Shown here piece after piece: positions 45,835 to 63,454 of a DNA stretch of 64,000 nucleotides. The stretch comes from Paramarasmius palmivorus (taxonomy: Eukaryota > Basidiomycota > Agaricomycetes > Agaricales > Marasmiaceae): the NCBI GenBank assembly GCA_037176845.1, contig JAYKXP010000024.1, positions 1 to 64,000 on the forward strand, written 5' to 3'. Under the pieces are notes generated by a model. It saw only the letters and a list, made by a program, of their open reading frames with translations, made no database searches and was not told where the DNA came from. The translations under genes and the position numbers were made by a program. Numbering within the stretch: position 1 is the stretch's first letter; each line of letters begins with the position of its first letter.

Positions 45835-46205
45835 ATGGCAGCCCTGGGACCAATCCAAAATGACTTGGCGGCAGAACTCTGCCGCATGAAGTGAGTGTCT
45901 GCATCTCCGCCATAGTATCTCCCTGATAACTAACTGCGATTGGCAGAATGGACGCTTGCATGGCGTTATTCGATACCGATTCTTCCGATGACCACGAGTG
46001 GCGCATTACTTTCAACACTGCAGTTCTTACTTGTGGCCATCACGATGACTATCGTCCTGCCCTAGCGAAGGTGGTAGGCGTGGTGAACCCTTACCTTTCC
46101 CACTTCGTACCTCCGGCTGCTAGCATCAACGGAGTGATCAGCCAACGGTTTTTTGATTTCCGTTTCTCCATCGGCAAGCCATCAACACAGGATGTACCCG
46201 TCTAG
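45835..46205 (+). pseudogene. Small gene truncated by the KDZ element's left end
   Basis: ATG 45835 (MAALGPIQNDLAAELCRM) joins through a GTGAGT...GGCAG intron to MDACMALFDTDSSDDHEWRI, then TCGHHDDYRPALAKVV and ASINGVISQRFFDFRFSIGK. The stop codon TAG lies at 46,203-46,205, inside the first GTCTAGCTAGAC palindrome, so the last five codons and the stop are supplied by the left terminal repeat (from 46,189). The native 3' end has therefore been replaced or lost. I could not find its continuation right of 63,439. The family is not recognised. Confidence 0.45.
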
Positions 46206-46355
46206 CTAGACTTCCCTGGTAAACAACCCCGTCGACTTGCTAGACTTGGCCGGTGGGTGTTGGCCCTGCAGTCTAGCTAGACAGGCTTTGTCGTCCCGAT
46301 TCTCGTACGGAAACAGCGTGACATCCCGCCTACGGAATATCCCCGCCTCCTTGAA
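46189..46355 (+). repeat. Left inverted terminal repeat of the KDZ element
   Basis: The 167 bases from AGGATGTACCC to GCCTCCTTGAA match the reverse complement of 63,269-63,439 with about ten differences. It contains two full GTCTAGCTAGAC palindromes (46,200 and 46,271) and a half-like CTTGCTAGACTT. Confidence 0.9.
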
Positions 46356-47310
46356 TATCAGCCCTTATCAGCCCTGAAGTCTAGCTAGACAAGATATTCG
46401 TTTGCGGCCGCATGGCTTACTATGCACAATAGCCCCATGCTATCTGGTCCGACCAGCCTTAGAGTCTAGCTAGACAGGCTATTTGTGTATTGGTGACTGC
46501 ACGGCTCACTACCGTTGCGTCCGATATTCCTGGCTCGTCTGCTTTGATCATGCATTGCCTGATTCAGCCAAGATCTGGCATCTTCGTAGCCATAGCCATT
46601 CAGTGTATGCCTGTGAAATGGTGAGATGTGGAAGAGCAAAAAGAAAAAAAAATACACTAACACGTGCACGCACAGCAGTTGTCTACCAAACAATGACGCG
46701 CCTGTGGTCTAGCTAGACGGACTCCCTTCATAAAAACATAAGTTACGTCTTACCCTTCCGAGGGATGTCTAGCTAGACACTCACCTGCCTTGTGTCTAGC
46801 CAGACACGGCACGAAAGGGTGAACGTCTTGATACCCCCCCGCATGTCTAGCTAGATGCACACCTGCGGTAGGTCTAGCTAGACCTCTTGTTGAGCAGTGT
46901 GAGTTTGACGTACTGCTGGAGATATCAGACTTCTCGACATCTTCCTGCGTACCTAGCTAGATGCTCACCTGTGTTGGGTCTAGCTAGACCTCTTGTCGAG
47001 AAACGTGAGTTTGACGGTCTATGTGAAACCATAGGAGTCACATAATCCTACGAGAAAGAGTCGGCCAGCAGTCTGGCTAGACAGGTCATGTGAAACGATA
47101 TGATCCTGCGACATCCACGTCACCTACCGGCAGTCCTGTAGGAAAGGAGTGTGCGGAGGTCTAGGTAGACCAGTCCCCGGAGAAGATCTCAATATGTCGA
47201 GTAAGTAGAGTATACCTATCCTGCAGTCTAGTTAGACTCATTCCAATACCCAGAACATTGTACCCAGGACATCTACTTGTTTTCACCATCTTGAAGTCTA
47301 GTTAGACACG
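46200..47310. repeat. Left subterminal array of GTCTAGCTAGAC palindromes
   Basis: Perfect or near-perfect copies of the 12-bp palindrome occur at about 46,200, 46,271, 46,379, 46,464, 46,707, 46,767, 46,793 (CC variant), 46,844, 46,872, 46,979, 47,071, 47,226 and 47,295, with a few more degraded ones. Spacing is irregular (about 25-240 bases) and the sequence between copies is mostly unique, so it is neither a satellite nor a CRISPR array. A segment with CTCTTGTTGAGCAG-GTGAGTTTGACG at 46,885 is partly repeated near 46,990. The layout fits clustered binding sites for an element-encoded protein. Confidence 0.85.
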
Positions 47311-47366
47311 GATAATAGCCAATAAAAAGAAAAGTTCTATTTCAACCGATTTTGAACAAATGTTGT

Positions 47367-49694
47367 TTACGTAGGCTTAGCACTTCGGCGTGCACGTTTG
47401 ACGCCATTTTCACCCTGTCCAAGAATATCTTCAGCGTACTGCATCAGAGCGTCTTCTTCGGTCTGTCGCTTCCTCTTCTTTGGAACTGTATCACCTGCAG
47501 GACGAACAAGTGGTAAGAGTTAGCTTTGCCTCGATTCTAGTAACCAGGACGCACCATGTGACGTGTTATATGATCCGCTACCTGACATCGGTGTTGTAGT
47601 ATTCACTGGTGTGTCTACAAAAGAAAGTTAGGGATGCCCACTACTTTAATAACCTCGAACTCACCATATTGCGCCAAGTTATATGATCCACTAGCTGACA
47701 TTGGTACTGGAATATGAACATTCATGTCCCAAAGAGCTGGATCGTTGAAGTTGAATGGCAACAAGTCCTGCTGCATGCCCATGCCCGAATTGTTGTAATA
47801 CCCGGCATCTCCTTGACTCATGAACCCGAATCCTGGCATCGGCTGGGGAGTAGGAAGTCGTAATGGAGCTAAGGTCATATGAGTAAAACTGCATCGTGAA
47901 TCGCCTTGGTGCAAAACTAACCTTGTTGCTGTGTGTCCACACCCAAATTTCCAGAAGAGAAGTTCCACCCATCTACATAGCCATTGTTCGTCTGCTTTTG
48001 GGGCGCTGGTGTAAAAGTTTCATTGGCGTTACTTTGGTTGAGATATGGATGCGCCGGTGACTGTATAAAGGCTGGATTGGTACTTCCACCTTGAGGCTGA
48101 GGAGTCTGGGTAGTGACAGGGCACGTTGTGGGCTGAGAGAGGGATGATGGAGTCGAGGAAGCAGTAGGCTGAGTTGGTTGGACAGGACGCGTTGCAGGCT
48201 GAGCGAGGGGTGGTGAGGGTGAACGCGTTGCAGGCTGAGCGAGGGACGGTGAGGATGAAGAAGCAGCAGGCTGAGCAGAAGCTTGAGCAGGCGCACGACC
48301 TGCAGACTCGGAAGATTCTTCCGAAGATGGAGTGAGAGCAGGAGAGAGTGCCGCGTTGCCCTGTACAGCCACGTTCTCTGTTGGGCTGTGATCCGCCGGA
48401 ATCGGACGAATCACGGGAGCTGCTGCCGGCGTGAAACCTGTGCTGTCAGAAGAGGAGAACCGTTCCCACCCAGGTTGTTGATCAACGTCAACATCAACCA
48501 CCTCATTGGAACTGCCTCCTCTCTTGAATATTCGACTCTCGCACTCCGACTTGACTATTATAAAGTGAGTATTATCTTGACTCAATGGATAAACATGATA
48601 ACTCACGGAAAACGTGCTTTGCAAATGCCGTACAGTGTTCGTGTATTTCTTGACATTTCTCTGGATTGAATGTCTGGAAAGAATCATTGGTCTGCGACGT
48701 TGGAACAATCGAGGTAATACTGTATTATTGTATTGGTGTCAGACATATATGCTGAGAATCCCAAAACGACTCACCTTTCAGTCCTAATGACTCCGTCATC
48801 TCTGGGACCAGCGGCGAGCAAGATCACTGCAACGCCAAAATGTTTCGCTATGGCATCCACTGTTGCTGCAATAACGGTTTTGGAACGCAGCCACGCACTA
48901 TTTAATGCATAAGGTAATGATTTGTGTTTGAACGGTGGTCACTTACTCAGAATAGTCCTCAGCCGACCCTGTCCAATTGCCTCGCTGCGAATATTTCATC
49001 AAGTCCTCGGCGTAGATTCGGGCATTCTCCTCTCTAAGCAACTTCATAAACTCCTCGTCCTCCATCTCCCACTTTTCCTTCGAGAACTTGTTCATCTCGC
49101 TGAGTCTATAATTACCGGAGATCAACTTATTCGCGCCGCCTTCCCAATAGTTATCAAAATCATCCTTTACACGGTCCGCATAGTGCAATTCCTGGTAGCG
49201 CTGGACGTCGGTCTTCTTACGAGGAACCTCTTCCCTGAGTTCGCGAACTGTTTCGGTTATCATCGACACGAGCTTCTGGTCGGATTTGGCAAGCTTGTGG
49301 CGGAAATGATAATTAGCCCAGTTGATGATCTTCTATTGGCGAGTGAGTAAATTATATATCTATACAGCTTGCGTTTGCTCACCTTTTTCACCTTCCTTCT
49401 GTGTGTACTACGACTTTTGACCTCTTTACCTCGTTCAGCTCCTTCAGGGAACGTGTTGATGTCGGGAGGCGTATAGTCGACATCGGGCTCCGGCGCGACT
49501 TCAGGAGGAAGTTTGTAGCCCCAGGTACGTATAAATTCGTCGGTTGCTTGGTTGTACATAGCTGATCGATTTGTGTTGAACATCTCCTCGTATTTCTCAA
49601 GCATTACCCGTTTCTTCCCTTTCGGCCACGACCTGTTGTTGTTGCCGTCCTCGTCGTTCGTGTTCGTGTTTTGTTTCTTCTTGGTTCGTCCCAT
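47367..49694 (-). CDS. Conserved KDZ-linked protein (unnamed family)
   Basis: ATG 49694 starts MGRTKKKQNTNTNDEDG followed by SWPKGKKRVMLEKYEEMFN and FIRTWGYKLPPEV. About eight exons then join in phase: KIINWANYHFRHKLAK, DVQRYQELHYADRVKDDFDN, a helical Glu/Lys-rich part, SKTVIAATVDAIAKHFGVAV with ILLAAGPRDDG, FNPEKCQEIHEHCTAFAKHV, a long Pro/Ser/Gln-rich low-complexity tail with LAQPATR repeats, and a basic end with KKRKRQTEEDAL and a nuclear-localisation-like VKRARRSAKP. I recognise this layout (basic start with KGKKRVFLEKY, 'WFRHH' exon, 'F-M-V-S-ILLCGP' exon) as the protein often found beside KDZ transposases in agarics. A nuclear auxiliary role is likely but unproved. Confidence 0.7.
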
Positions 49695-49874
49695 ATTGAT
49701 ATTCTGTATAGGCAGGAAATCAATGTTTATTCCGACGCGTTTTCGACGCGTCTTCGAACGGATCCTGCTTACCTATTGGTCGTGAGAGGTTTTGAGTTGC
49801 ACTGACACCCTAGAGATGGATAGAGGATGTTAATGTGAGTAAACGACGTTGAAAACGCGATGAGATCTTATAGC

Positions 49875-50352
49875 TCACTGAAGTTTAGAAACACTTGCAA
49901 GAGCCAGGAAATGGAGGTTGTAGAAAAGAGCAGAGACAGAGCGGATGCGTAACAGGTAGTAAGCAGAGTCACGCTCGTGACTTGGTGAGCTTATCGGGCA
50001 TAATTCTTGAGAATATCTTTTCAACTGATCTTGCGGGACGTACAATTTTTTTTGTTCTGTGCGGCGTACTGGTATTGATTTGGCACTATGACGACCAGCT
50101 GGCGTGACCGCGACTTTCGCTACTTCCGCTACTTCCGCCACTTCCGCCGCTTCGTGATTTTGTGTGCCTGCGGCTATGTCCATCAATCGTGATCTCCACT
50201 TCGGTGAGCCATTGACTGAGCCTCTACAGCCCGAACCGGATGCCACTTACACTTTGCATCCGCTCACCAGGGTTGAAGATACACAATTCCCCCTGGTCTG
50301 GAACGGCCTGGACCTGCGGGAGAACAAAGGATAACGACTCCAACTCGAGCAT
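49875..50352 (-). CDS. Doubtful small gene, Val/Ala/Glu repeat
   Basis: ATG 50352 reads MLELESLSFVLPQVQAVPDQ and IFNPGERMQ before a possible donor. A downstream open stretch has GSPKWRSRLMDIAAGTQNH, the nine-base tandem repeat giving EVAEVAEVAKVAV, then RRTEQKKLYVPQDQ. The intron joining them would be only about 37 bases, short for this genome, so the model may be wrong. It sits between two better supported cargo genes on the same strand. Confidence 0.25.
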
Positions 50353-50615
50353 TCTGGCTTGGAACTAGCGGAAGAAAAGAAGTTTTTAGCTTTGGCGATA
50401 GTGACGGAGGTTCACTAAGTCTACATGGCACCGGAAACATGAAAATGATAGTGGGACGACACCAGACGACAGGAGAATGGCTTCTTTGGTGCGTGGGTTA
50501 TGATAAGGTTCACAAATCTTGGAGTTCACATTGACAGAAACGATACAGATCAACAGGAACGATACAAATCATACGACACAAATCATGAAACATACACAAC
50601 GTTGAATATACCTAT

Positions 50616-51348
50616 CTAATCATACTTCCCAGAATCGTTTCCATGGCCACACGACATGCACTGACCCATAACACGGTCGTAATTCTTCCTATTGTCTGCT
50701 CCGCACTTCGGGCACGGCTTCTTAGCCTTCTCAGCCGCAGCCTCGTTCAGGATCCTGATCTCCGATGGAAGGAGAGTATAGGCCTCACGTTCTGCCACGA
50801 GATGCTGCTCTTGGACGACTGCATCCCATTCTGGGGACTCATGGTCACCTGTTATGTCTAGGTTGTCGGAATCGAAGACCATATACTTGAGGTATTCCAT
50901 TATGGCTAGACATCTTGTAAGTAATGATGAATATTAAGCACGGTTCGGCACATACCATAAGTGAATAATGGCCCGAGTGAGTCGTACAAAACATCACGCT
51001 GCTCGTCTGTGAATTTCTTGAAGACACGTCGGAAGTATGGTAGTTGCAACGCTGACAAGACGTTGAGTATATTGAACACTAGAATTAACGAGACTCACTA
51101 TAATCTTTCGAACATACAATAGAAGCTATGTGCTTAACCTCGACCTTTGCTTTCTCATCTTCGATAGCCATAAGTGCCCTAGCTTGTTTGTGGCCCTCAG
51201 GAAGGAGCTCAGGAAATTCCATATAGATGTCGTCTGTAAACGCGCATCTGCCGATTGGGGTCGTTCCACTGGTGAAGCCACAGGGATGGGTAACGGCGGG
51301 GGGAACGGAAGAAGTAGCAGCGTTAGCGGGATTGGTGTCGGCGCTCAT
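50616..51348 (-). CDS. Small zinc-ribbon protein of the KDZ element
   Basis: From Met at 51,348 (MSADTNPANAATSSVPPAV; an upstream in-frame Met at 51,390 is possible) three exons join in phase: FTDDIYMEFPELLPEGHKQA, then LQLPYFRRVFKKFTDEQRDV with LYDSLGPLFTY, then IMEYLKYMVFDSDNLDITGD and the C-terminus PCPKCGADNRKNYDRV-GQCMSCGHG. The last part is a C4 zinc ribbon (C-x2-C, 15 residues, C-x2-C), as in many DNA- or RNA-binding adaptors. The protein is about 205 residues. I infer a nucleic-acid-binding or transcription role in the element. Both introns have good GT-AG signals. Confidence 0.6.
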
Positions 51349-51793
51349 TCTTGCAGGTTTGAAGGGTGGGAAGAAATCCTCAGCATGCACCCAACACGCA
51401 GATATATACGGCTCTCTAGGGCTGTGTTCCCCAACTAGTTACTAGTTAACGTCAAATAGACTTCCCCTTTAAAAGTCGCTTCAAAGTCTACTTCGAGTGA
51501 CCAAGGACCATGTGCATTCTACCTCTAACGCGTTACATACAAACTCAATCATATATCGATGCATCAGTCACTAAATAGAGGTTGGAAGCGTCCATCTCTC
51601 CTGAAGCATGCCTTGACGGGAGAATCTGCTACCATCGCCGGAAAAGACAATGATGTCTCTGGCCATCTACCAACCGGAGACGAAGGTGGGGTTGCTGGGT
51701 GCCAATTGCGTTCCAATTTTCTGAGACCGATAATACCGCCCAGCTTCCAGTCGTAATATCGGATAATACGCTAGACTCAGGGGCTGATATTAG

Positions 51794-52167
51794 CTAGGGA
51801 AAACACCTATCATAACATTGAAGACGCACTTCTTGGACCTTTTTTTTCCAGTAGGCCTTGAGCCGTTTGCGCCAAAGACTCCACATGGACGGAGACCAGC
51901 GCTTGAGCCAGATAATAGATAAACAATGGATGAATCTCCAGAAACGAAGATGGGTGTGATCTACACGGCTATCGCGATACAACTTGTAGAGCTTGGCTTT
52001 GTCGTCGAGGAATCGTTTTTGTTTTGTGTTCAGGATGGTGAGCATGTCGACCATATTCTTTTCGCCGTTCGTCAGATCCTTCTCAGAACGAGACGAAGGT
52101 TGAGGAATGCTAAATAAAAGTCAGCGTTGAGTGAAAAGTGGGCTGAAGGTACCAGGACTTACTCCAT
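51794..52167 (-). CDS. Short basic protein of the KDZ element
   Basis: ATG 52167 reads MD and is spliced (GTAAGTCC...ATTTAG) to IPQPSSRSEKDLTNGEKNM, VDMLTILNTKQKRFLDDKAK and LYKLYR. The remainder is Trp/Arg/Lys-rich (WSLWRKRLKAYWKKKVQE) to a stop at 51,794. Another intron within 51,900-51,960 is possible. About 85-105 residues, no known family. It follows the promoter-proximal basic gene on the same strand. Confidence 0.35.
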
Positions 52168-52337
52168 CGTAGTCTTGTATCGATTGTTATTGGTAAGAGA
52201 GCAAGGAAGTGTGGGAATGCCATTTGCTCTTTAAGTGACACGTCGGGCTGATTAGGTGAACACCGGATATACCTCAGATGTGGCGGAGGCGTTTGCGTCT
52301 AATAATTTTTACAAAAGCGGGTGAAATATACATAAAT

Positions 52338-53456
52338 TTATCCTTTCATAAAGGGCAGACAACCGTTATTGAAGTCATTCGCGAGGTCATCCGGACTGTA
52401 CAGAATCATACTACCAAGATCTTCGCGGAGCACGGTCACGCGATCACGCAGCCTGCGCAGACTTCGTTCGGCGATTGGTAGTCGAAAATAGATTCGCTCA
52501 TGGAGGCGAATGATCCGCAGCTCTATTTCCCATATAGCCTCATGTTTATCGAAGATGAGTTCGTTATAGCCGTCGTTCTGGATGTGCCGTAGATGACACT
52601 CAACGACCTTCGGTAGGAATTCGTGGCGTTTTGAGGCTCCGACGCTTTGGTAAACTTCCGTCAAGGAGGAAAGGCAGGCCTGGGCCTCGGTCTGCCATGC
52701 TTCATCGGCGCTGAAAAGGCAAGAGCACGTAAGAAGTTGCAGGACAGAGTATCAACTCATGCACACCTAATCTTTGACAAATCTGGACTAGGCTCAATGG
52801 TCTCAGTCCGGTAAAAGTAAGACGTTGAGTTCTCTGGACCGATGGCTGCGGGGCGTCGATTTGGTCTGTGAATAACGTCCAGAGGGTCGCTAGAGCGACT
52901 GATGAGGCAAGAGTTCTCTTTTGGAGGAAACGGAACGCACGGAGAGCTGGGAGGATGGAGCGAGACGGGGTCCTGATCCCGGTGTGGAGAGTCATGGCGC
53001 TCGTATTGCTGAATGGGCGAATTCGGCGAGCAGGGTCTTTGGTAGATATTCCTAGGCTGTGACCGAGGGGTTGAAGATGAAGGTACTACTACTGTTGACC
53101 TGAAGCGGATAAGTATGAGCAAAAGGAAACACGAAGGAAAGAATGTAATAATCATGACGCACAAAACCTCCTCATTTTCCGACTCTGCGCCCTTTGTTGG
53201 TATTTCGGTAGGCTCTGAAAACTTCTTTGAGGCTGCGCTGTGCCTATTGAGATGTGAGCATGTGAAGTATTCACACAAAACAATCCTTACTTCCTCCGTT
53301 TTGCATTCAGGGTATCCTTGTTTCTGAGTGCCGATTAATTGGAAAGTCTACTTGGAGGAAGAGACCAAATTCATACCTCGCATAGTAGCGAGCCGCTTTA
53401 AGCCGTTTGGCCTCTCTTTTCTCTGCTCGTGTTTTGTATAGTCGCTTGCGTGGCAT
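52338..53456 (-). CDS. Basic KDZ-linked protein (MPRKRLYKTRAEK type)
   Basis: ATG 53456 starts MPRKRLYKTRAEKREAKRLK with AARYYAR, spliced to NKDTLNAKRRK, then HSAASKKFSEPTEIPTKG, a Ser/Pro-rich exon (TPRSQPRNIYQRPCSPNSPI) and a helical C-terminus with ADEAWQTEAQACLSSLTEVY, PKVVECHLRHIQNDGYNEL and RRLRDRVTVLREDLGSM. Four introns keep phase. The N-terminal basic block with 'YY-x-x-NKD-x-x-N-x-xRR' is a pattern I know from short proteins beside KDZ transposases in agarics; it may bind DNA. The frame can also extend upstream through an intron (GTAAGG...TTTAG) to a Met at 53,806, which would add about 100 residues. Confidence 0.55.
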
Positions 53457-54051
53457 GGTGGCAGTAGAGGACGAAGACGGATGTGAAGTATGAGGCTAAA
53501 CAAAGGCTAAATAAGCTTTGTTCAATCCCAATCTAAATGCCTTACCTCGTTAAGGTAGTCCAAATGTGATCCATGCGTTGAGTGTCGTCCGGGAAGGGTT
53601 TTGTCTGGTATGGCCTCATGAATAAGTCGATGCGGGGTTTGTAAAGTCGAGGTTGATGTCCAAGGTGTATTAATACTCGGGGTCATGCTATCACAACCTC
53701 GGTAGTCGCCAGCCATTCCAGCGCTACTTGCCCAATGAAACTCATTCCACCAGATTTGACAGTATTCCCGGGTCAAGGAAAGAAAGTCAAGGTATAACTG
53801 TAGCACAACTTTGTAAAACTAGTAAGCATCAGTAATAGATATCCTAATCTTTAGATGCTAGTACATACCGGTTACCGGGTAGTTTTAACCCCCTCTTAAC
53901 CACCCATTAACCCACTGTAACTGGTTATTGGAGGTTTAGAAGGGTTATAGAGGAAATGGATGGTTATCAAAGTTCACACTAATAATGTCAGTTTGTGCCA
54001 GTTGTATATGCATGTACGTATATTAGACCCACCAGCGCCTGAGCACCCAGA

Positions 54052-54159
54052 CTAAGCGCTTAGAGACATGTGATCAAAACCTCATGAAAAAATGTCAACT
54101 GGTCATGTGATGTTGACATTTTTTCATGAGGTTTTGATCACATGTCTCTAAGCGCTTAG
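54052..54159. repeat. Perfect 48-bp inverted repeat with 12-base loop
   Basis: The left arm 54,052-54,099 and the right arm 54,112-54,159 are exact reverse complements (48 of 48) around TGGTCATGTGAT. Each arm begins with CTAAGCGCTTAG, itself a 12-bp palindrome. It lies in the roughly 2.8-kb stretch between the two gene groups of the KDZ element. It could form a cruciform or a hairpin RNA, or be a small foldback element. Confidence 0.95.
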
Positions 54160-56589
54160 CATACAGAGTCCTCGTAACCTATTCATGCTTATAACACCCC
54201 AAAAGCAATTTTATCTGCTTCAACCACACTTCAGTTACTTTCCCTGCAGGATGACATTAAACCGTGGCATGACCTATGTATTCTACATCACTATCATCAC
54301 TGTCAACGAAACCCAATGGATAAAACCCGGTGAATATGATCTTGTTCGTAAGGTTGTCGACTCATGGACGTGGCCCATTCATATAGCGAGAGTTTGGGCC
54401 ACATCCCACTTAATTTCTGAGTTTCCTGTGGGTTGAGAGCAGTTGAAGAGACCGTATGTTCCGACATCATGATGTTATGCACAACCTTTTCCCTGCCAAG
54501 ATTCCACCGTCCTTACTGGAGGATGAATTTTTTGAGAGTTCTATAGTACTTTCACTCATTGAATATGCAATCATTAAGCACTCCGTTGAGTATATTCATC
54601 GTTATGATTTTTTCTTCCTAGTTCTGTGCACTTGGCGCTCGTTTGACGCCCAACGAGTCGCTCGAGGTTTTCGTCAAGCTCCCCTCAATTCAAGGATAAG
54701 TATCCCGTGGTAACCTGTTCTTTGCACGAATACGCTGCCATTTTATAGCTCATGGCCTATTCTGTAATATATCACGATTTGGTCAACCTCCGGTACTGCA
54801 AACTTAGTACCAGCGGGATGTTGAACCACCAGCTTGAAACTTTAGTAGTATGGGGTGTCGGCTCAAGATCAGGTATTACATGGGATGTCTAATTCAGGGT
54901 GCGTTCATCATATATCTCGTGCTGAACTGTACATAGATGCATTAATCATATACATGGTCCTTGTCGCACGCTAAAGACAACTGGAACCTCTATCGATATT
55001 GAAACTTCGCATCATGAAATTATAAGGTGTGTTCAACACAACCTTTTCCCTGGTCCTTTATACAGCTCTCCAGATATTCAATTTTTTTTGAGGGCATCTC
55101 TAAGATCTCTACATGGCGTCTGTAAAATATCTAAGCCTCCTACTCCCTACAACACTGATTATGATTTTCCTTTTATTTGTGAAGGTCCCGGCTATTGGAA
55201 TTTCCGGCTATCCGGTGACCCAGGCGCCCAACTAGCGCTGAATATTGTGCACTTATCGAACACTCTCATGTAGAATAACGCACAAAAAGACTGTCATAAA
55301 GTAGGAGACACTACATATCTGGTCTACTGGCTAGGGATAATTGCTACTTTCCTAGACCTCGGCTCCAAAGCCAGCGTAACCCTTCTCATTACCGTCCCAG
55401 TCTTCAAAATCACAAACCGGATATTTGATACCCATACGTTCACCGTGCATGAAAAAGCAGGCAATGTACTCAACTGCCAAATCTAAAATCAAGAATGAAG
55501 TCAATTTAAATCATGAGGAAATCCATCTTACTAAAATAAACTGCACTACTGAGAACCATTCGGACAACGTAGATTTGTTCAGCGGAAAAATGTTCTGCAG
55601 GTCGTAACATTTCACGAATTACACCGTTGCAGCGAACTAAACCAATGGCTTCTTGAAACCCTTTCCCGTGACGATCTACACATATCAGCCTCTTGATAAT
55701 AACATACAGTAGTGTAGATGGCTTACACATTGCGAGGGTTGCTATCTGTAAGATGTACATGGCACGGAAATCATGGCGGTCAAAATGCGCGAGTACATGA
55801 TTGAGACTATCCTGAAATGCAGGGTGTCGCCGAAGCTCCGGATAGAGATCCAAAGGGATTTCACCTGAGAAGATGATATTGGAATACAATTGGAAACGGC
55901 ACTGACTACGACCTACAAATGAAAGCGAGCGACGACCCAGGAGTTAGCTGGGGGGCAGTCTCGGTGGTGAGGGAGCTAAACAATTCCACTTCGGGCCGGC
56001 TCAGGAAACTGACGTCGATGTCGATGCATTGAAGATTGGTTTGAGTGTAATGAAGTAGGTCGTTTGGCATGCTGTATCAAGGCAATTGAAGATGAGGGTA
56101 GAGAACAGAAGAAAGACGCGAAAATTTTCACTCACAAGCGCAGTTTGATTCGGATTGTCGGTGTGGTTGCATACTCCCTTGCACTTTGAATTGGTGGCGT
56201 GAGTCTAGACAGGCCTATGTGGTCTCCACGAAGCGCCTTCCAGTCTCGGGAGAAAGTAGTTTACAGTTAAAGATTGTCAGCGTGGTTGCATACTCCCTTG
56301 CACTTTGAATTGGTGGCGTGAGTCTAGACAGGCCTATGTGGTCTCCACGAAGCGCCTTCCAGTCTCGGGAGAAAGTAGTTTACAGTTAAAGTTGCATGCG
56401 GAAGTGGCAAAGGACGCCACACTCCCCGGAAGAAGGGGATATCAATGTTTGCACGGGCCAATCACTTGGGAATTAGAACAGGTACAAATCTCCATTTTAC
56501 GCTTTCCGCAAGATTAGCTGCAAGATGATCTTTCATTGATGATCTTTCATTTGTACCAAGATAGAGTTTTACATGTGAAACGGACTACG
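54160..56589. other. Gene-poor centre of the KDZ element
   Basis: No confident gene. On the minus strand 55,889-55,506 reads SGEIPLDLYPELRRHPAFQD, then ILQIATLAMCKPS and IREMLRPAEHFSAEQIYVV, which looks coding. An upstream piece near 56,050 (MPNDLLHYTQTNLQCIDID) also looks coding but does not join in an obvious phase, so this may be a decayed gene. On the + strand, 54,260-54,430 and 54,456-54,713 hold open pieces without recognisable motifs; words such as ACAACCTTTTCCCTG recur at 54,482 and 55,036. Confidence 0.4.
56153..56390. repeat. Two-copy 119-bp tandem duplication
   Basis: 56,153-56,271 and 56,272-56,390 are almost identical (differences near GATTGTCGGTG versus GATTGTCAGCG). The near-identity points to a recent duplication. 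A smaller tandem, ATGATCTTTCATT twice, follows at about 56,524. Confidence 0.9.
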
Positions 56590-57498
56590 CTAAGCATCGC
56601 CACGGCGGGCTTTCATACGTGCGATCATACGTTGCCTACGATGATACTCGCGGAGCCGGTCCCAGCCCTGTTCGATGAGGGCATTGTTGTCAGCAGAGGC
56701 GGAGGCGTTGTCATTGGCGACACGGACGATTCCTGGATTGGCAACGGGAGCGGGGTGACTGGGCCTCCTAGGTACCTGAGAAAGGGGTCAGCATGGTAAA
56801 CAGAAGAAAAAACTTGAGGTCTTACATCCCGAGGGTTCAAGGCCAACCTTTTGCGTTCAGAGTAAGCCAAGCCAGGCATGGAAAACCTCAATTCATTGTA
56901 TCGCGGCATGGAGAGCCTCAATTCACTGTATCGCTGGACTGCTTGACCCACGACAGCCTCTGGCAACTTTGGCGATTTTTTGGCGAGACTGACCGCGGTG
57001 GACGCGGTGCTAGATGCTGGAGTGCCGCTGATGGTGCCGGAGTTGAAAACAGGGCCGTTTCTCGCGTTTCGGATGACAGCGGCAAAGGCTGGACCGTCCA
57101 AGGCGCCTTGGCGTCGAAGAGATCGAGATGGAATGTTTGGAGGAGCCTCGTCTTCATCGGTTGAGACCTCTTCGGTGGAGGTGTCTTCACCAGTCGAAGC
57201 GCCAGCGTCGGTGCGATGTCCAGTTTCCTGTTGTTCAAAAGAGTCAAGGGGTGAAATGGTAGAATAAGATGCTGGATACCTCATCAGTACGAACGTCTTC
57301 GCCACTTTCGTGGTTGTCGGTGGGTACGCTGATTTGCATTTGCTTGCGAGGTGGTCTTCCTGTAAGTGGGTTAGACTGCTGGAGAGATGTGGTGTAGGAG
57401 TGAAATTACCTCCAGTGGTACCGCATGAATATTCTCTGTGTGCTGTGATTCATTGAACATAAACGAATGGTTTGAAGGCTATAAATATGCTCACGCAT
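56590..57498 (-). CDS. AT-hook-like acidic protein of the KDZ element
   Basis: ATG 57498 with a one-base first-exon overhang is spliced to PHREYSCGTT, then GGRPPRKQMQISVPTDNHES, an acidic exon ETGHRTDAGASTGEDTSTEE with VSTDEDEAPPN, a Ser/Ala-rich part, LAYSERKRLALNPRD and the final exon VPRRPSHPAPVANPG with EQGWDRLREYHRRQRMIARM to the stop at 56,590. All five exons keep phase. GRPPRK resembles an AT-hook core (G-R-P). It is transcribed divergently from the transposase with about 230 bases between starts, so the two may share regulation. It may be a nuclear DNA-binding partner; the family is not named. Confidence 0.5.
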
Positions 57499-57727
57499 TT
57501 TTGTCGATTTTCTAAGAGGGTAGAAGAAGGAATGGGAGATAAAGATAGTGAGTGAAGCTTTTATAGAGGGATCGTGGAGTCAGATAAACTTTTGAAGGCC
57601 AGGATTCGGCCATCTCAATTTCCGATGGAATCGTCGTGGTGGTTGTAGTCGAAGGAGTCACAGTGTGACGTTGTGACGGCGTGGTAACGCTGACAACGTG
57701 GTTCTACCCCTCATTCCTCCGCGGACT
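57499..57727. promoter_or_regulatory. Divergent promoter region, AT-hook gene and transposase
   Basis: 229 bases separate the two starts. A CTTTTATAGAGGG word at about 57,557 could be a TATA-like box for the minus-strand gene. No GTCTAGCTAGAC palindrome lies here, so if that motif is a binding site it acts at the ends, not at this promoter. Confidence 0.4.
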
Positions 57728-60700
57728 ATGCCCAAAACATCGCGCAACAAGAGGGACAATAAACGCTTTTCAACCAGTGAAAGTCTACAACGGCCGGAGA
57801 AGTCTATAACATCGACTGCAAGAGGTATCATAGCTAAGAATGTGGATGTCAAGATTTCGACTCACTCAGAATCATCGACTGGTCCCGCAAACGCAGTCTC
57901 AGAACCATCTTGGGAGCCCTTTGACATGGTATCTAGCTCTGAGATGCTCAATGAAGAATATGGGGACTCTGAACCTCCATTGAATGAAGAGCCAGGTCGG
58001 GTCAAAGTGAAAAAGAGCAAAGCCAAGCGCTACGAAGACTCTGTACGTGGCCAGACACCTCTATCTGAGTCATTCTAATCGCTCTTTAGGACACACCCCT
58101 TCTCAGTTGGCTGGAGAAACACCGTGAAGAGTATCTGGCATGGTCATTTGCCTCTGAGGGCCGAGGAAGATTACACAAAGGAGGATGTGTTACTGAAGGC
58201 TGCCTCGGAGACGCTATCCATCGCTGTTTGGACTGTGTTGGGTATGGGATGTTCTGCAAGAAATGCATCCTTCGAAATCATGGTCTTTCTCCTTGTCATA
58301 GAGTTCAGGTATGGGTTAGGTTTATCTCGTGATGCCGATGCTCATTCATGACTGATAGACATGGAAAAACCACTTTTTCATCCCCACCACATTACGAGAG
58401 TTGGGGCTATGCGTTCAGTTTGGCCATTTGGGAGGCCAGGGATGTAACAAGTTCTTGTTGGTTGAAAAGTTCGTAGTACTCGATGTCAATGGCATCCACG
58501 TCATCGATGCTGCGTTTTGTGGATGCAGTGAAATCAGTACGTATGAGTTTTGCTTTGCTACGTGTCGCTCATCTGAAACGTTTCATTGCGCCAGATCCAA
58601 GAAATCAACTCCTCGAGTTCGGCTTTTGGCCGATGTCATACAAAGACCCTCAGTCGGCGGTGACATTCAACCTACTCCGCAATTTTCATCTCATGAACCT
58701 GAAAGGGCACATCCCCCCGACGGACTACTATCGTGCCCTTGAAAGGATGTCAAACGGAGATGGATTACACCCGCCTCCTGTGAGTCAATGTACATTTGAT
58801 CTTTGCATTGTGGTCGCTGAAAGTTGTACAGGATCGGCTACATCAATTTCGAACCGTTATCCGTGAATGGAGACATATAAAAATGGGAAGACGTTCAGGA
58901 AGAGGCCATGATACCACAGGTCTATCGGGGACTCCCAATGGCGGGACGATGGTACTCTGTCGCGCCTGCCCACACCCTGGAATCAATTTACCACAAGGCT
59001 GGGAAGATGCGCCAAAGGAAATGCAGTACGACAATCTTTTCTGTCCTTGCTCTTGCAGCTAAACATAGAATTAGATTCCTTTATGCTCTACTTGTGTCGA
59101 TTGACGCGAATTTCAAGCAGAAAGCTCGCTCCCGGCCCGGTGACAAGAACGATCCAGTTTTGGGTCCAGGTTTTGGTTGCTTCGTCCCGAACGAACCCTA
59201 TATGGAGGAGATCAATAGAAGTGCTGATCAAGATGAGGTCAGTCTTCAATCTTTCGTTAGACGACTTTATTAATGCGAGCTCAAGATCAGTCATTGCGTA
59301 ACCTTCTCCGCAATCTGGAACGCAAATAACAAGAAGTCCAGGGGTCTCAGAGCGACAGGCGTTGGATCTGTAGTATGTTCACGACACGGGATGTTTCGAC
59401 CCAATGGAATGGGCGACCTGCAGAAGGGTGAAAGGTGACTTACAACCTCAACATATTTGAGCTATTTTACTGAATGACCATTCCAGATATATCAATATGG
59501 ACTGTATCTTCTTAATGACGCTCATCTCGTGCGGCGTCATGGTTTTGTATGTCACTTACGACATCGCATGCCAGTGGGGAATCAAGTTCTTTGAACGTAT
59601 GTCAAAACGACCATCCCACTGGCATCTACCACAAGACATGAGCATTACCTTTAAAGTCCCTAAGTTTCACCTACCGGCTCACACCGAAAAGTGTCACGCA
59701 CCATACGCACTAGAGTATACGGAGGGCGTCGGAGACACAGACGGCGAGGCGCCGGAGAGGAACTGGGCCGAGCTGAACGTATCCGCTCGTTCACTCTCCA
59801 TGATGACGTCAGGGGCTAGGTTCGACACCACGGACGATATTTGCAATGATTGGAATCATGAAAAAACTCTCGACCTGGGTAAGTATGTCTTATTCAAATG
59901 ATACCTTTCTCACCAATATCCACTAGCAAACTCTCTGATAAAGAAGTTGGTCAAAGCAATATCAAATCTTGTAGTCTATACTCGTGCATTCACGGCATTC
60001 ACGGAAGCACTACAACACAATCACAGCATAGAGCTCCAGAAATGGGAGAAGCAGGTGGTGGAATGGGAGAATAAGCGAAGTCGCTACTGTCCGTATGAGA
60101 TTTCATCTTCATGTGAGTTGATTTTGGTTTAGGCGCAATAATCTCGGCTAATAATCATGATTTTCAGCGATTAATATGGCCCAGGTCAAGAAATCACTTG
60201 CCGACGAAGAACACAGGCGTGAGAAGTCCGGAGAGAATCCTCGTGCCGATCTTAGCAAGGATACATCAACTCTTACTGCCTTAGTGATTGAAATGCTTGA
60301 CGTAGAAGAAATTCAGTAAGGTTTTCTTTAATGTATAATATGAATCATCACTGATCCCAGTAATAGGCGAACTTTGGCCGGTATTGCATCTCAATCAAAC
60401 CTTTCATTATACCAGAGGACAGATCTTCAAAACCGCCGCACTGCCTTGTTGAAACGCATTCGCCGCATGCGGGAAAACCAGTTCACACATATGCCAGCTC
60501 TTCGGAAATTGATCCAGTCTACCGATTCCGGCTCCGAACCGGAAGCCGTACCATTGTACTTCCCAAGCTCATTCACGGTCGAGGTCCGGCAATCCGTGTT
60601 CCCCGCATATGCTATTCACTTAGAGAACCAGCTCCGGTATGCTCAAGCATTCGAAGCTCTTAGTACCTTGAGAGGTCTACTTCGAGCTCGCACCGTCACC

Positions 60701-61582
60701 TATCAGCACTCTGAGCAAGGGACGCCATCTCAGTCCATGTTCACGAAGCTCAATGCACTTCGATCGCAGGTTGAAGTCAAGATTAGGTCGATTTCCGGGA
60801 TGTATCGAACAGCAAGAGCAGGGCTGTTACAACTACGTGGTTCGGGTGACTGGGAGAAGGCCTTGAAAGAGTTGAAGGCAGAAGATGTTCGAGGAATCGG
60901 TGAGCGTGTTGCCCGAGACGAGGACTTGGAGACTTTCCGCAAAGCTCAAAAACGAGCAGGCGTAGATCCAAAGGATGTTGAAAAAATCCTTCGGGGTGAG
61001 GATGTAGAGCTTCCAATGATTTTCGTTGATCCTTCTGCCACAGTCGCCTCCGGTTCACACCGAAGTGACAACCTGTCCTGGATCTGGTATACTTACGGTA
61101 GCAACGAGAGCGTATCAACCGAAGGAGTCGACGCTAAGGAGGTTGAAGCAAGTAAGTTGAACTTGAATCTGCTTTGGTACCCACGTTGATCTAATCATCA
61201 ATTGCAAGGTCTTCGAGTTGAATGGTGTAAAGCAAGAGCTCGTGCTCGCCGTGCTCGTGAGGAGGTGCTTCTAGTGAACGAGGAGATGAGAAGATGCATT
61301 GAATTTTGCAGATGGAAGGCAGGTTGGTGGGAGCAGCAAAAAGGAAGAAGCGATCTCGAGGCTTGGATTACTGAAGGCTTAGATGCATACGCTTCCGAAC
61401 AGGCATTCTCCGAAACAAGCCGTGCCATCAACTGGAATCGACAGTCGTTCAGCATTCGAGAACGAGCTAAAGTCATTTGGAATTGGGTCGATAACCCCAC
61501 TGATGACTTAGAGGTATGTTTAAGTAGACTCACTACTCTTGAGATTGAGATGGACTTCGACGGTGATGAATGGGATGTATAA
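57728..61582 (+). mobile_element. KDZ transposase, 1,099 residues, intact
   Basis: Twelve exons (57728-58042, 58090-58308, 58359-58536, 58595-58779, 58832-59025, 59069-59237, 59286-59434, 59487-59878, 59927-60112, 60168-60315, 60361-61151, 61209-61582) join with consistent phase to 1,100 codons. N-terminal CxC2-type cysteine cluster: HRCLDCVGYGMFCKKCILRN then HGLSPCHRVQTW. KDZ core: CRACPHPGINLPQGWE, LLVSIDANFKQKARS (first Asp), GPGFGCFVPNEPY, TGVGSVVCSRHGMFRPNG, GDLQKGERYINMD, VTYDIACQWGIKF (second Asp), VPKFHLPAHTEKC, and TDGEAPERNWAELN (Glu). These are the expected DDE-type catalytic positions. The C-terminal third is helical with a coiled, basic segment CKARARARRAREEVL. The start ATG precedes a Lys/Arg-rich stretch PKTSRNKRDNKRF. 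It cuts and pastes the element; the conserved blocks and open frame suggest activity is possible. Confidence 0.92.
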
Positions 61583-61669
61583 CCTGACGTTTGTAGATTA
61601 GCTTCTTAGACTCGGACACTATAACACCTTGATTACACGTTAATTCATTCACTCGCGGCAGTACCTTTA

Positions 61670-63430
61670 AGTCTAGCTAGACGGTGAGCCTTGTATTCAC
61701 AACCGAGACGTTGGCCTGGCCCGTGTCAAGAATAAAAAGTTATGTTGTGGGCGGTACTACAAGTATTTAGTCTCATACTGATATTCCTACAGCTACATAC
61801 AACAATGTTAATCCATCACGCCAATAGAAAGGGAAACTTATTACTGATTAGCACCGAGAAATTGCAACAGCAAGAAATTTACGTACGAGCATCGATCGCG
61901 CTGACCAAGTCGTCTCCCGAGGGTACACTGATTCCCAGAAATTGGGCGAGCTGTGTTTGCATCCAGTGAAGCGCAAACCGGTTATACCTTGCAGAGAACC
62001 GATTGATTGTATGACCCTCTCCGTAACGCCTGAGGCGATCCTCAAGCATCTCGACTTCTAGTGCCCATAATTGCTCCGTAGGAATGTACGAAAGGTTGAG
62101 GCTCTCCAGGACAACGGAAGAGTCGCGAGCTTGAAGAGGGCAATCCATTGGTGAAAAAATGTCATTTTCCGTTGGTACGAGTCCTCTCATGGTATCAATG
62201 ACCAGGCGGACGTTTGCTCGAGTTTTGGGTGCGAGGACTGAAATGCGAGTGATCTCCTCCTCGAAATCTAGAGGAAAATCCTGAACGAAAAGTCAAAAGG
62301 GACCAATAAATCATTTTTAGTATAATCGTACCACAAGTTTTCGCAAAACAACCAGTTCCAGTAGGTCGGGATCCTCTTCTCCATCGCGCAGGCTTGAGAG
62401 CAAGCCATGTCGTGTTCGCGGATAGGCATCTATGATTCGATTGAACAGCTCTTGATGACAAAGGCTTTTGGCGACGATGGAAATGAAGGGGGAAGTGGAA
62501 CCAGCTGGAGGCGAGCTAATAGAGGACATTTGGGAGCAGTCGAAGGGCAGCTTTCAACCATCGGTATAAGTGTGCGGATCCCAAAGGTTATTCACGCCAC
62601 ATCATGGCCTCGGCGGAGCGTGTTGACGGCCACCGGGCTGTCATAGCCGATATCAGCCGGGCATCTATTGATTTTGGTTGATTTCCTTCTCTTCAAGCTT
62701 CTCCGACCACCTAGATCGATGAGCGCGTATGTCTAGCTAGACTTCACTGTAGGCATCAACTACTGATTACCTGGATCATTCCCTTCTAGCTTCAGGTCAG
62801 TCTAGCTAGACACTAATCCGCATATCATCTGAATTTCGGCAGGTACAGACGGAATGCTAATCGTTAGGTACGTCTAGCTAGACTTCAACCCTGCGAGGTT
62901 CTCCAACTCGGCGACCAATTGCTGATCATATCGTTAGGTACGTCTAGCTAGACTTCAAGCCTGCAAGGTTCTTCCACCCGGCGACTAATTGTCACGTTAT
63001 CCCTAAGACCCGTCTAGCTAGCCACCAGCGCCAGTCTGAGAGGCAGGTGAGATATCGCGTGTTCACTACTATACAATTAGTGAGTCTAACTAGACCTATA
63101 GGAAGAAGACTCTAGCTTGTGCGGTGCCCACTGCACCGGCACACACCAGTTGTGCATTAGCTACTGTGTATACCGCTGTGCACTCCATGAAATATGTCCG
63201 TAGGTATGCATGAACTCAATCGATTTCTCACAATGTCTCTAGGTCAGATGTAGGGAATTTGACAAAAGTTCAAGGAGGCGGGGATATTCCGTAGGCGGGA
63301 CGGGATGTCACGCTGCTTCCGTACGAGAATGGGGACAACAAAGCTGTCTAGCTAGACTGCAGGGCTAACATCCACCGGCCAAGTCTAGCAAGTCGACGGG
63401 GTTGTTTACCAGGGCAGTCTAGCTAGAGGG
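61670..63430. repeat. Right subterminal array of GTCTAGCTAGAC palindromes
   Basis: Copies or near copies occur at about 61,671, 62,731, 62,800, 62,871, 62,941, 63,011 (variant), 63,083 (variant), 63,344 and 63,417. The array is sparser than the left one, and one copy lies right behind the transposase stop, so the right array encloses the last cargo gene. A 70-bp unit with TCGTTAGGTACGTCTAGC is tandemly duplicated at 62,861-62,930 and 62,931-63,000. Confidence 0.85.
61879..62529 (-). CDS. Unknown cargo protein next to the right KDZ end
   Basis: ATG 62529 starts MSSISSPPAGSTSPFISIVA, then SLCHQELFNRIIDAYPRTRH and LLELVVLRKLV. One intron (GTACGA...GTTCAG, about 52 bases) joins in phase to FPLDFEEEITRISVLAPKTR, VRLVIDTMRGLVPTENDIFS, LNLSYIPTEQLWALEVEMLE and LAQFLGISVPSGDDLVSAID. 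The protein is about 200 residues, mostly helical, without recognised motifs. It is convergent with the transposase (stops about 300 bases apart) and lies inside the terminal repeat, so it belongs to the element. Confidence 0.5.
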
Positions 63431-63439
63431 CTACATCCT
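63269..63439 (-). repeat. Right inverted terminal repeat of the KDZ element
   Basis: 171 bases, read on the minus strand from AGGATGTAGCCC to GCCTCCTTGAA. Compared with the left repeat it has a five-base duplication in GGCGGGACGGGATG, one missing base and a handful of substitutions. Confidence 0.9.
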
Positions 63440-63454
63440 CTCCTCATACGTTCT

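Follow-up and report, generated by a model that had tools for sequence, protein, structure and literature searches.

We analysed a window of 64,000 nucleotides from the agaric Paramarasmius palmivorus (contig JAYKXP010000024.1, positions 1 to 64,000). An element of 17,263 base pairs (bp) within it is very probably a large multi-gene KDZ superfamily transposon of the autonomous cut-and-paste type, with a CxC2-type transposase. The original prediction, made from the letters of the window, had proposed a complete KDZ element with inverted termini, an apparently intact transposase and a set of cargo genes, and had considered it the best candidate for an undescribed system. Our analysis supported the complete multi-gene KDZ element with defined ends. 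The term 'cargo' seems mistaken for at least two of the genes, and 'undescribed system' was too strong.

Ends, palindromes and other copies of the element

The element, its terminal inverted repeats (TIRs) and its subterminal arrays were placed as follows.

46183..63445, no strand: complete element, 17,263 bp, bounded by the L end (CAACAC) and the R end (GAGGAG, reading inward); borders kept in other copies and in the colinear element on contig C64
46183..46359, plus strand: left TIR, L type; 92% match to 63269-63439; end pattern at 0 mismatches
63269..63445, minus strand: right TIR, R type; match to the left arm, conserved border and end-pattern search
46201..47306, no strand: left subterminal array of 12 TCTANNTAGA palindromes (shuffled mean 0.05 for 46183-47330)
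61672..63427, no strand: right subterminal array of 8 TCTANNTAGA palindromes (shuffled mean 0.03 for 61601-63445)

The genome (68 megabases, 393 contigs) was searched with 46189-46359. Apart from the query itself, the best match was its inverted partner 63269-63439, with 92% identity over query bases 1-167, and six weaker end matches were found elsewhere. The termini that had been called near-identical do pair. The TIR ends placed at 46189 and 63439 were also real, but alignment of the flanks of the end matches showed that conservation continues for 6 bp on each side (CAACAC before 46189, CTCCTC after 63439), which moves the true borders outwards. The sequence AGGATGTA is preceded by CAACAC at the L end and by GAGGAG at the R end, and the element thus has CA..TC termini with TIRs of about 171 bp. 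Allowing up to 3 mismatches, the end pattern occurred at 62 genome sites, compared to 31 for a reversed control pattern; 0 or 1 mismatch was found in 31 of the 62, the control total covering all mismatch levels together. A second end type, CAACAGTGGACGTAG...TCTGAAAAGA, was observed with 2 mismatches at nine sites (for example C18:757099 and C45:216988), which are probably ends of another KDZ family.

All 20 occurrences of the palindrome TCTANNTAGA in the window are subterminal: 12 copies lie in 46183-47330, 8 in 61601-63445 and 0 elsewhere, and 16 of them stand outside the TIRs. At the left end they were found at offsets 19 and 90, with a degenerate one near 53. The palindromes are natural candidate sites for binding by the transposase or its partners.

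Both end types were also found on contig C64, where an element of 20,013 bp (C64:23736-43748) carries all eight genes in the same order as in the window. The lack of any further copy sharing both ends, which would have refuted the original prediction, is thereby disproved. It contains 24 TCTANNTAGA palindromes, with 0 in the 3,988 flanking bases examined. Its transposase model falls into three pieces, and its L and R end hexamers are swapped relative to the gene order, as recombination between inverted ends would do. Parts of the element were detected on four more contigs (C139, C75 with two parts, C247 and C330), several of them stopping at contig edges. In the window and on C75, C247 and C330, gene A stands next to the L end or gene H next to the R end. 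No recent full copy of the window element was found in the genome search.

Pairs of L and R ends also delimit short copies, namely on C1 (165 bp) and on C21, C40, C92, C109, C114 and C136 (664-686 bp). On C33 and C192 (660 bp) the R end is paired with an L end at 3 mismatches. Ends other than those of the paired copies stand unpaired. The short copies have in common with the element only about 100 bp of each end, palindromes included. In 6 of the 7 short copies examined the palindromes lie at offsets 19, 53 and 90-91 from each end, with C192 departing on one side. The C92 copy (C92:28286-28969) has one palindrome beyond its ends, and TTAGGG-like runs were observed in its interior.

Each of the nine short paired copies has a direct repeat directly outside its ends, of 7 bp in eight and of 8 bp in one.

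7 bp: C92 GTCCAGA; C21 GACTGGG; C136 GAACATA; C109 GATCTTG; C40 TTCTCTC; C1 GCTGAAG; C192 and C33 GACATTC
8 bp: C114 CTAGTAAG

Since their flanks are identical, C192 and C33 suggest one duplicated locus.

Transposase and accessory genes

Eight genes were modelled within the element.

47367..49694, minus strand: gene A, about 650 amino acids; conserved N-terminal part of about 320 residues, Pro/Gln-rich middle, KKRKR-containing C terminus; homologues beside other KDZ genes
50616..51348, minus strand: gene B, zinc-ribbon-like CPKCG...CMSCG C terminus; exon limits uncertain
51570..52111, minus strand: gene C, about 170 amino acids, Trp/Arg-rich and conserved; 57-77% identity in relatives; distant homologues near KDZ matches on C131, C151 and C163
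52359..53495, minus strand: gene D, short basic N-terminal region and conserved C-terminal part; middle exons uncertain
55352..56070, minus strand: gene E, about 205 amino acids, no assigned identity
56590..57498, minus strand: gene F, about 190 amino acids, low complexity, conserved SLRRQGALDGPAF block; weakest gene model
57728..61582, plus strand: gene G, CxC2-KDZ transposase with acidic triad; 12 exons; 1107 amino acids in the present model, 1085 in the public one
61879..62529, minus strand: gene H, about 200 amino acids, member of a dispersed family, probably captured

The transposase model agrees with the prediction. Its reading frame is open across 12 exons with GT-AG introns, and it matched the Pfam KDZ family (PF18758) with 193.5 bits over positions 1-217 of 217. 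A match to CxC2 (PF18803) scored 100.5 bits, the Cys cluster preceding the KDZ core. In an alignment of 44 transposase sequences, chosen out of 87 matches, D374 is invariant and D493, E555 and E558 are nearly invariant (at least 90%; numbering of P0005). D374, D493 and either E555 or E558 thus form a conserved acidic triad, which would be catalytic. Transposases 45-50% identical to that of the window are present in Moniliophthora roreri and Marasmius crinis-equi. A Foldseek search of the whole transposase against the PDB gave no match at E<=0.001. Nothing reached this threshold when the sequence was compared with solved structures either, the best hit being a zinc-finger match to residues 119-157 (E 0.046).

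The coding status of the seven other genes was supported by tblastx to relatives, least for gene F (one relative, 71 codons). The gene models keep the best tblastx frame only; genes D and C and part of B were joined in the window model, with the end of B apart, and were split following the C64 models. The ratio of nonsynonymous to synonymous differences (pN/pS) was below 1 in all 25 gene-relative comparisons, pairs with fewer than 40 alignable codons being left out of the count, and ranged from 0.19 to 0.62 in the non-transposase genes. Gene A corresponds to P0001 (VNI00_007344, 652 amino acids), which is annotated without an internal stop. Its predicted structure had a mean predicted local distance difference test score of 38.5, too poor for a fold search.

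Several of the labels given earlier to the proteins fit the models, with a zinc ribbon in gene B, a basic protein in gene D and a Pro/Gln-rich one in gene A. The AT-hook-like label of gene F did not hold, as its GGRPPRK reads GGKPPKK in C64, leaving no conserved canonical AT-hook. Matches of gene B to Pfam zinc ribbons were all under the cut-off, and the Pfam scan of the eight models gave no accessory protein a function. That the accessory proteins may bind DNA is a suggestion from their motifs. No RNA gene was found within the element in Rfam (gathering thresholds) and transfer RNA searches.

We then looked at homologues of the accessory genes elsewhere in the genome, relative to KDZ matches (365 first-look candidates, 150 scored, at least 178 matches). 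Homologues of gene A were found on 20 contigs (47 matches, one kept per contig), and 16 of the 20 lie within 20 kilobases (kb) of a KDZ match, among the matches listed. With the five loci of the window family excluded, the proportion was 13 of 15, likewise among the matches listed. As background, at least 7% of the genome is within 20 kb of a listed KDZ match, the true value being higher, perhaps two to three times. The gene A misses may reflect KDZ matches outside those listed, and one of the two, on C185, carries an H homologue too and may be a remnant of the window-element family. Beyond the family, gene C homologues were found on C131, C151 and C163, in all three cases within 6 kb of a KDZ match among those listed. 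Gene H homologues were present on 12 further contigs, of which C186 alone has a KDZ match within 20 kb, among the matches listed. On two others (C26, C54) an L-type end lies less than or up to 11 kb away, and a piece of gene A is present on C185; these three loci may be family remnants. The remaining eight have no listed KDZ match, L-type end or gene A piece nearby. Genes B, D and E matched only the window-element family in the genome search (best 45 of 171 candidates). Among public proteins, gene A gave four matches in one search, which scored the best 7,989 candidates by shared words, and three in another, all from Paramarasmius apart from a partial one from Moniliophthora perniciosa.

Because its homologues stand near KDZ matches at 13 of 15 non-family loci, gene A appears to be a widespread component of KDZ elements. 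Homologues of A and C recur near KDZ matches and those of H mostly do not, so A and C are probably regular accessory genes of KDZ elements and H is probably a captured gene. Elsewhere in this genome, homologues of A and C repeatedly accompany KDZ transposases from other families, and 'cargo' therefore seems mistaken for at least these two genes. The shared gene content and gene order of the C64 element suggest that several accessory genes are permanent parts of the element rather than random baggage.

Further features were observed inside this copy. A 108-bp segment (54052-54159) consists of a 48-bp inverted repeat with perfectly matching arms around a 12-bp loop, with both-strand matches at C137:83905 and C54:374401, and is probably a small nested foldback element. 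Between genes E and F, 56153-56391 holds a 119-bp head-to-tail duplication (98%), probably a recent event in the window copy. The segment 53795-53948 has counterparts of about 77-78% similarity on C23, C243, C363 and C167. Three of these counterparts sit within a few kb of KDZ-end-like sites at 2-3 mismatches, and the segment is possibly a non-coding piece common to several KDZ families.

Flanks of the window copy and alternative explanations

Neither of the two full-size copies has a target duplication: the bases outside the ends are AAGCCAT and ATACGTT in the window, and AAACGTT and ATTCAGA on C64. For the window copy this was unexpected. To its left lies a gene that has a paralogue on C261, and the alignment of the two reaches 46180-46181, 1-2 bases short of the element. 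As the gene stops at the border and the C261 copy continues, a host sequence is truly interrupted at the left end. The remainder of the gene was not found in the 8.5 kb to the right of the element, and genome-wide it was found only as the C261 and C90 paralogues, indicating that the two flanks do not together make up one insertion site. No second allele of the left flank was found in the assembly, and for the right flank no match spans the first 217 bp outside the element, so that the border is not covered. The window copy has thus undergone rearrangement beyond its ends or an abnormal integration. A deletion or rearrangement on the right side, a recombination event involving a further copy, and abnormal integration would each explain this, and we put them on a par.

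The mismatched flanks could also mean that two ends from different insertions came to enclose a KDZ gene along with unrelated host genes, and the missing duplication and swapped end types of C64 point the same way. Such a composite is very improbable, as the C64 element encloses all eight genes, in unchanged order, between an L and an R end, the ends on C75, C247 and C330 likewise sit next to the genes expected there, and pN/pS is below 1. A dead fossil with open genes as chance survivors would account for the 8% difference between the TIR arms, the failure to find a recent full copy, and the foldback and duplication inside the element. We regard this as rather improbable, given a transposase open across 12 exons, a gene A annotated without an internal stop and the 16 palindromes kept outside the TIRs.

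It is also conceivable, though unlikely, that only the transposase is needed and that the seven other genes are passengers acquired by an ancestor. The dispersal of gene H fits this, with one of its 12 further contigs near a listed KDZ match and three remnant-like, as does the Pfam scan, which identified no function for the accessory proteins. Elements described with a KDZ/CxC1 transposase at 9.2-11 kb in Cryptococcus (PMC12810828) agree with it as well. The positions of the gene A and gene C homologues near listed KDZ matches and the pN/pS values of the non-transposase genes argue against it.

For the autonomous-type KDZ transposon that we favour, the following course would be expected. The palindromes at both ends would be bound by the transposase, either by itself or together with A, B or D; the bound ends would be paired and the element cut out by a DDE RNase H-type active site, and insertion would take place with a 7-bp stagger. 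The short copies would be moved in trans by the same machinery. A and C would likely serve as standing accessory proteins in end binding, target choice or regulation, with H probably captured. The flanks of the window copy would have been altered since insertion, or it would have arrived without the ordinary target duplication.

Relation to known KDZ elements

The comparison with known systems draws on the available portions of the cited papers. KDZ1, KDZ2 and KDZ3 of Cryptococcus neoformans have TIRs of 139-241 bp and 4-8 bp duplications (PMC12810828). They resemble the window family in being large, with long TIRs, short target duplications (in the short copies here) and a Cys cluster with the KDZ core. 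They differ in being smaller, in having CxC1 and in that their insertion was observed experimentally, and no accessory gene set was found described for them in those portions (PMC12810828). Kyakuja elements of Agaricomycotina have 7-bp duplications, CA..TG termini without TIRs and, in TET-positive elements, a TET/JBP gene (PMC12730594). TET-positive Kyakuja share with the window family the agaric KDZ lineage, the 7-bp target duplications (in the short copies here) and the 5' CA terminus. The window family differs by its CA..TC termini and TIRs, and as its termini depart from the published description, by which the two were compared, we did not file it under Kyakuja. TET/JBP cargo was considered and rejected: an exon-by-exon genome search gave 0 matches over the PF12851 cut-off and two weak ones, both on C207, and the Pfam scan of the eight gene models gave no match. 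Zisupton likewise belongs to the KDZ superfamily and has TIRs, but with 8-bp target duplications (PMC12730594), compared to 7 bp in eight of nine short copies here. In Marasmius oreades, a related genus, KDZ TIR motifs have been characterised, and about half of the DNA elements belong to the KDZ and Plavaka groups (PMC8290104).

As large KDZ elements of Cryptococcus (PMC12810828), Kyakuja elements of agarics (PMC12730594) and KDZ TIR motifs of M. oreades (PMC8290104) were already described, 'undescribed system' was too strong, and the window element is a real multi-gene variant of the known KDZ superfamily. In the literature searched, as far as its available portions go, we found no description of such an accessory gene set, and few KDZ elements are delimited there. 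In the window family the ends and target duplications are exactly defined, a candidate binding palindrome recurs at fixed spacing, short copies could serve as substrates and the set of partner genes is conserved, so that the proteins and DNA needed for KDZ transposition can be tested. The possible partner role of the extra genes is the interesting part. We tentatively consider, with more doubt than confidence, that agaric KDZ elements of this type may be multi-protein transposition machines, in which A, C and perhaps B, D, E and F would be obligate partners that recognise the arrays of palindromes at either end and control target choice or silencing. If this were true, these elements would be a eukaryotic counterpart, in layout and not in descent, of the multi-component bacterial transposons.

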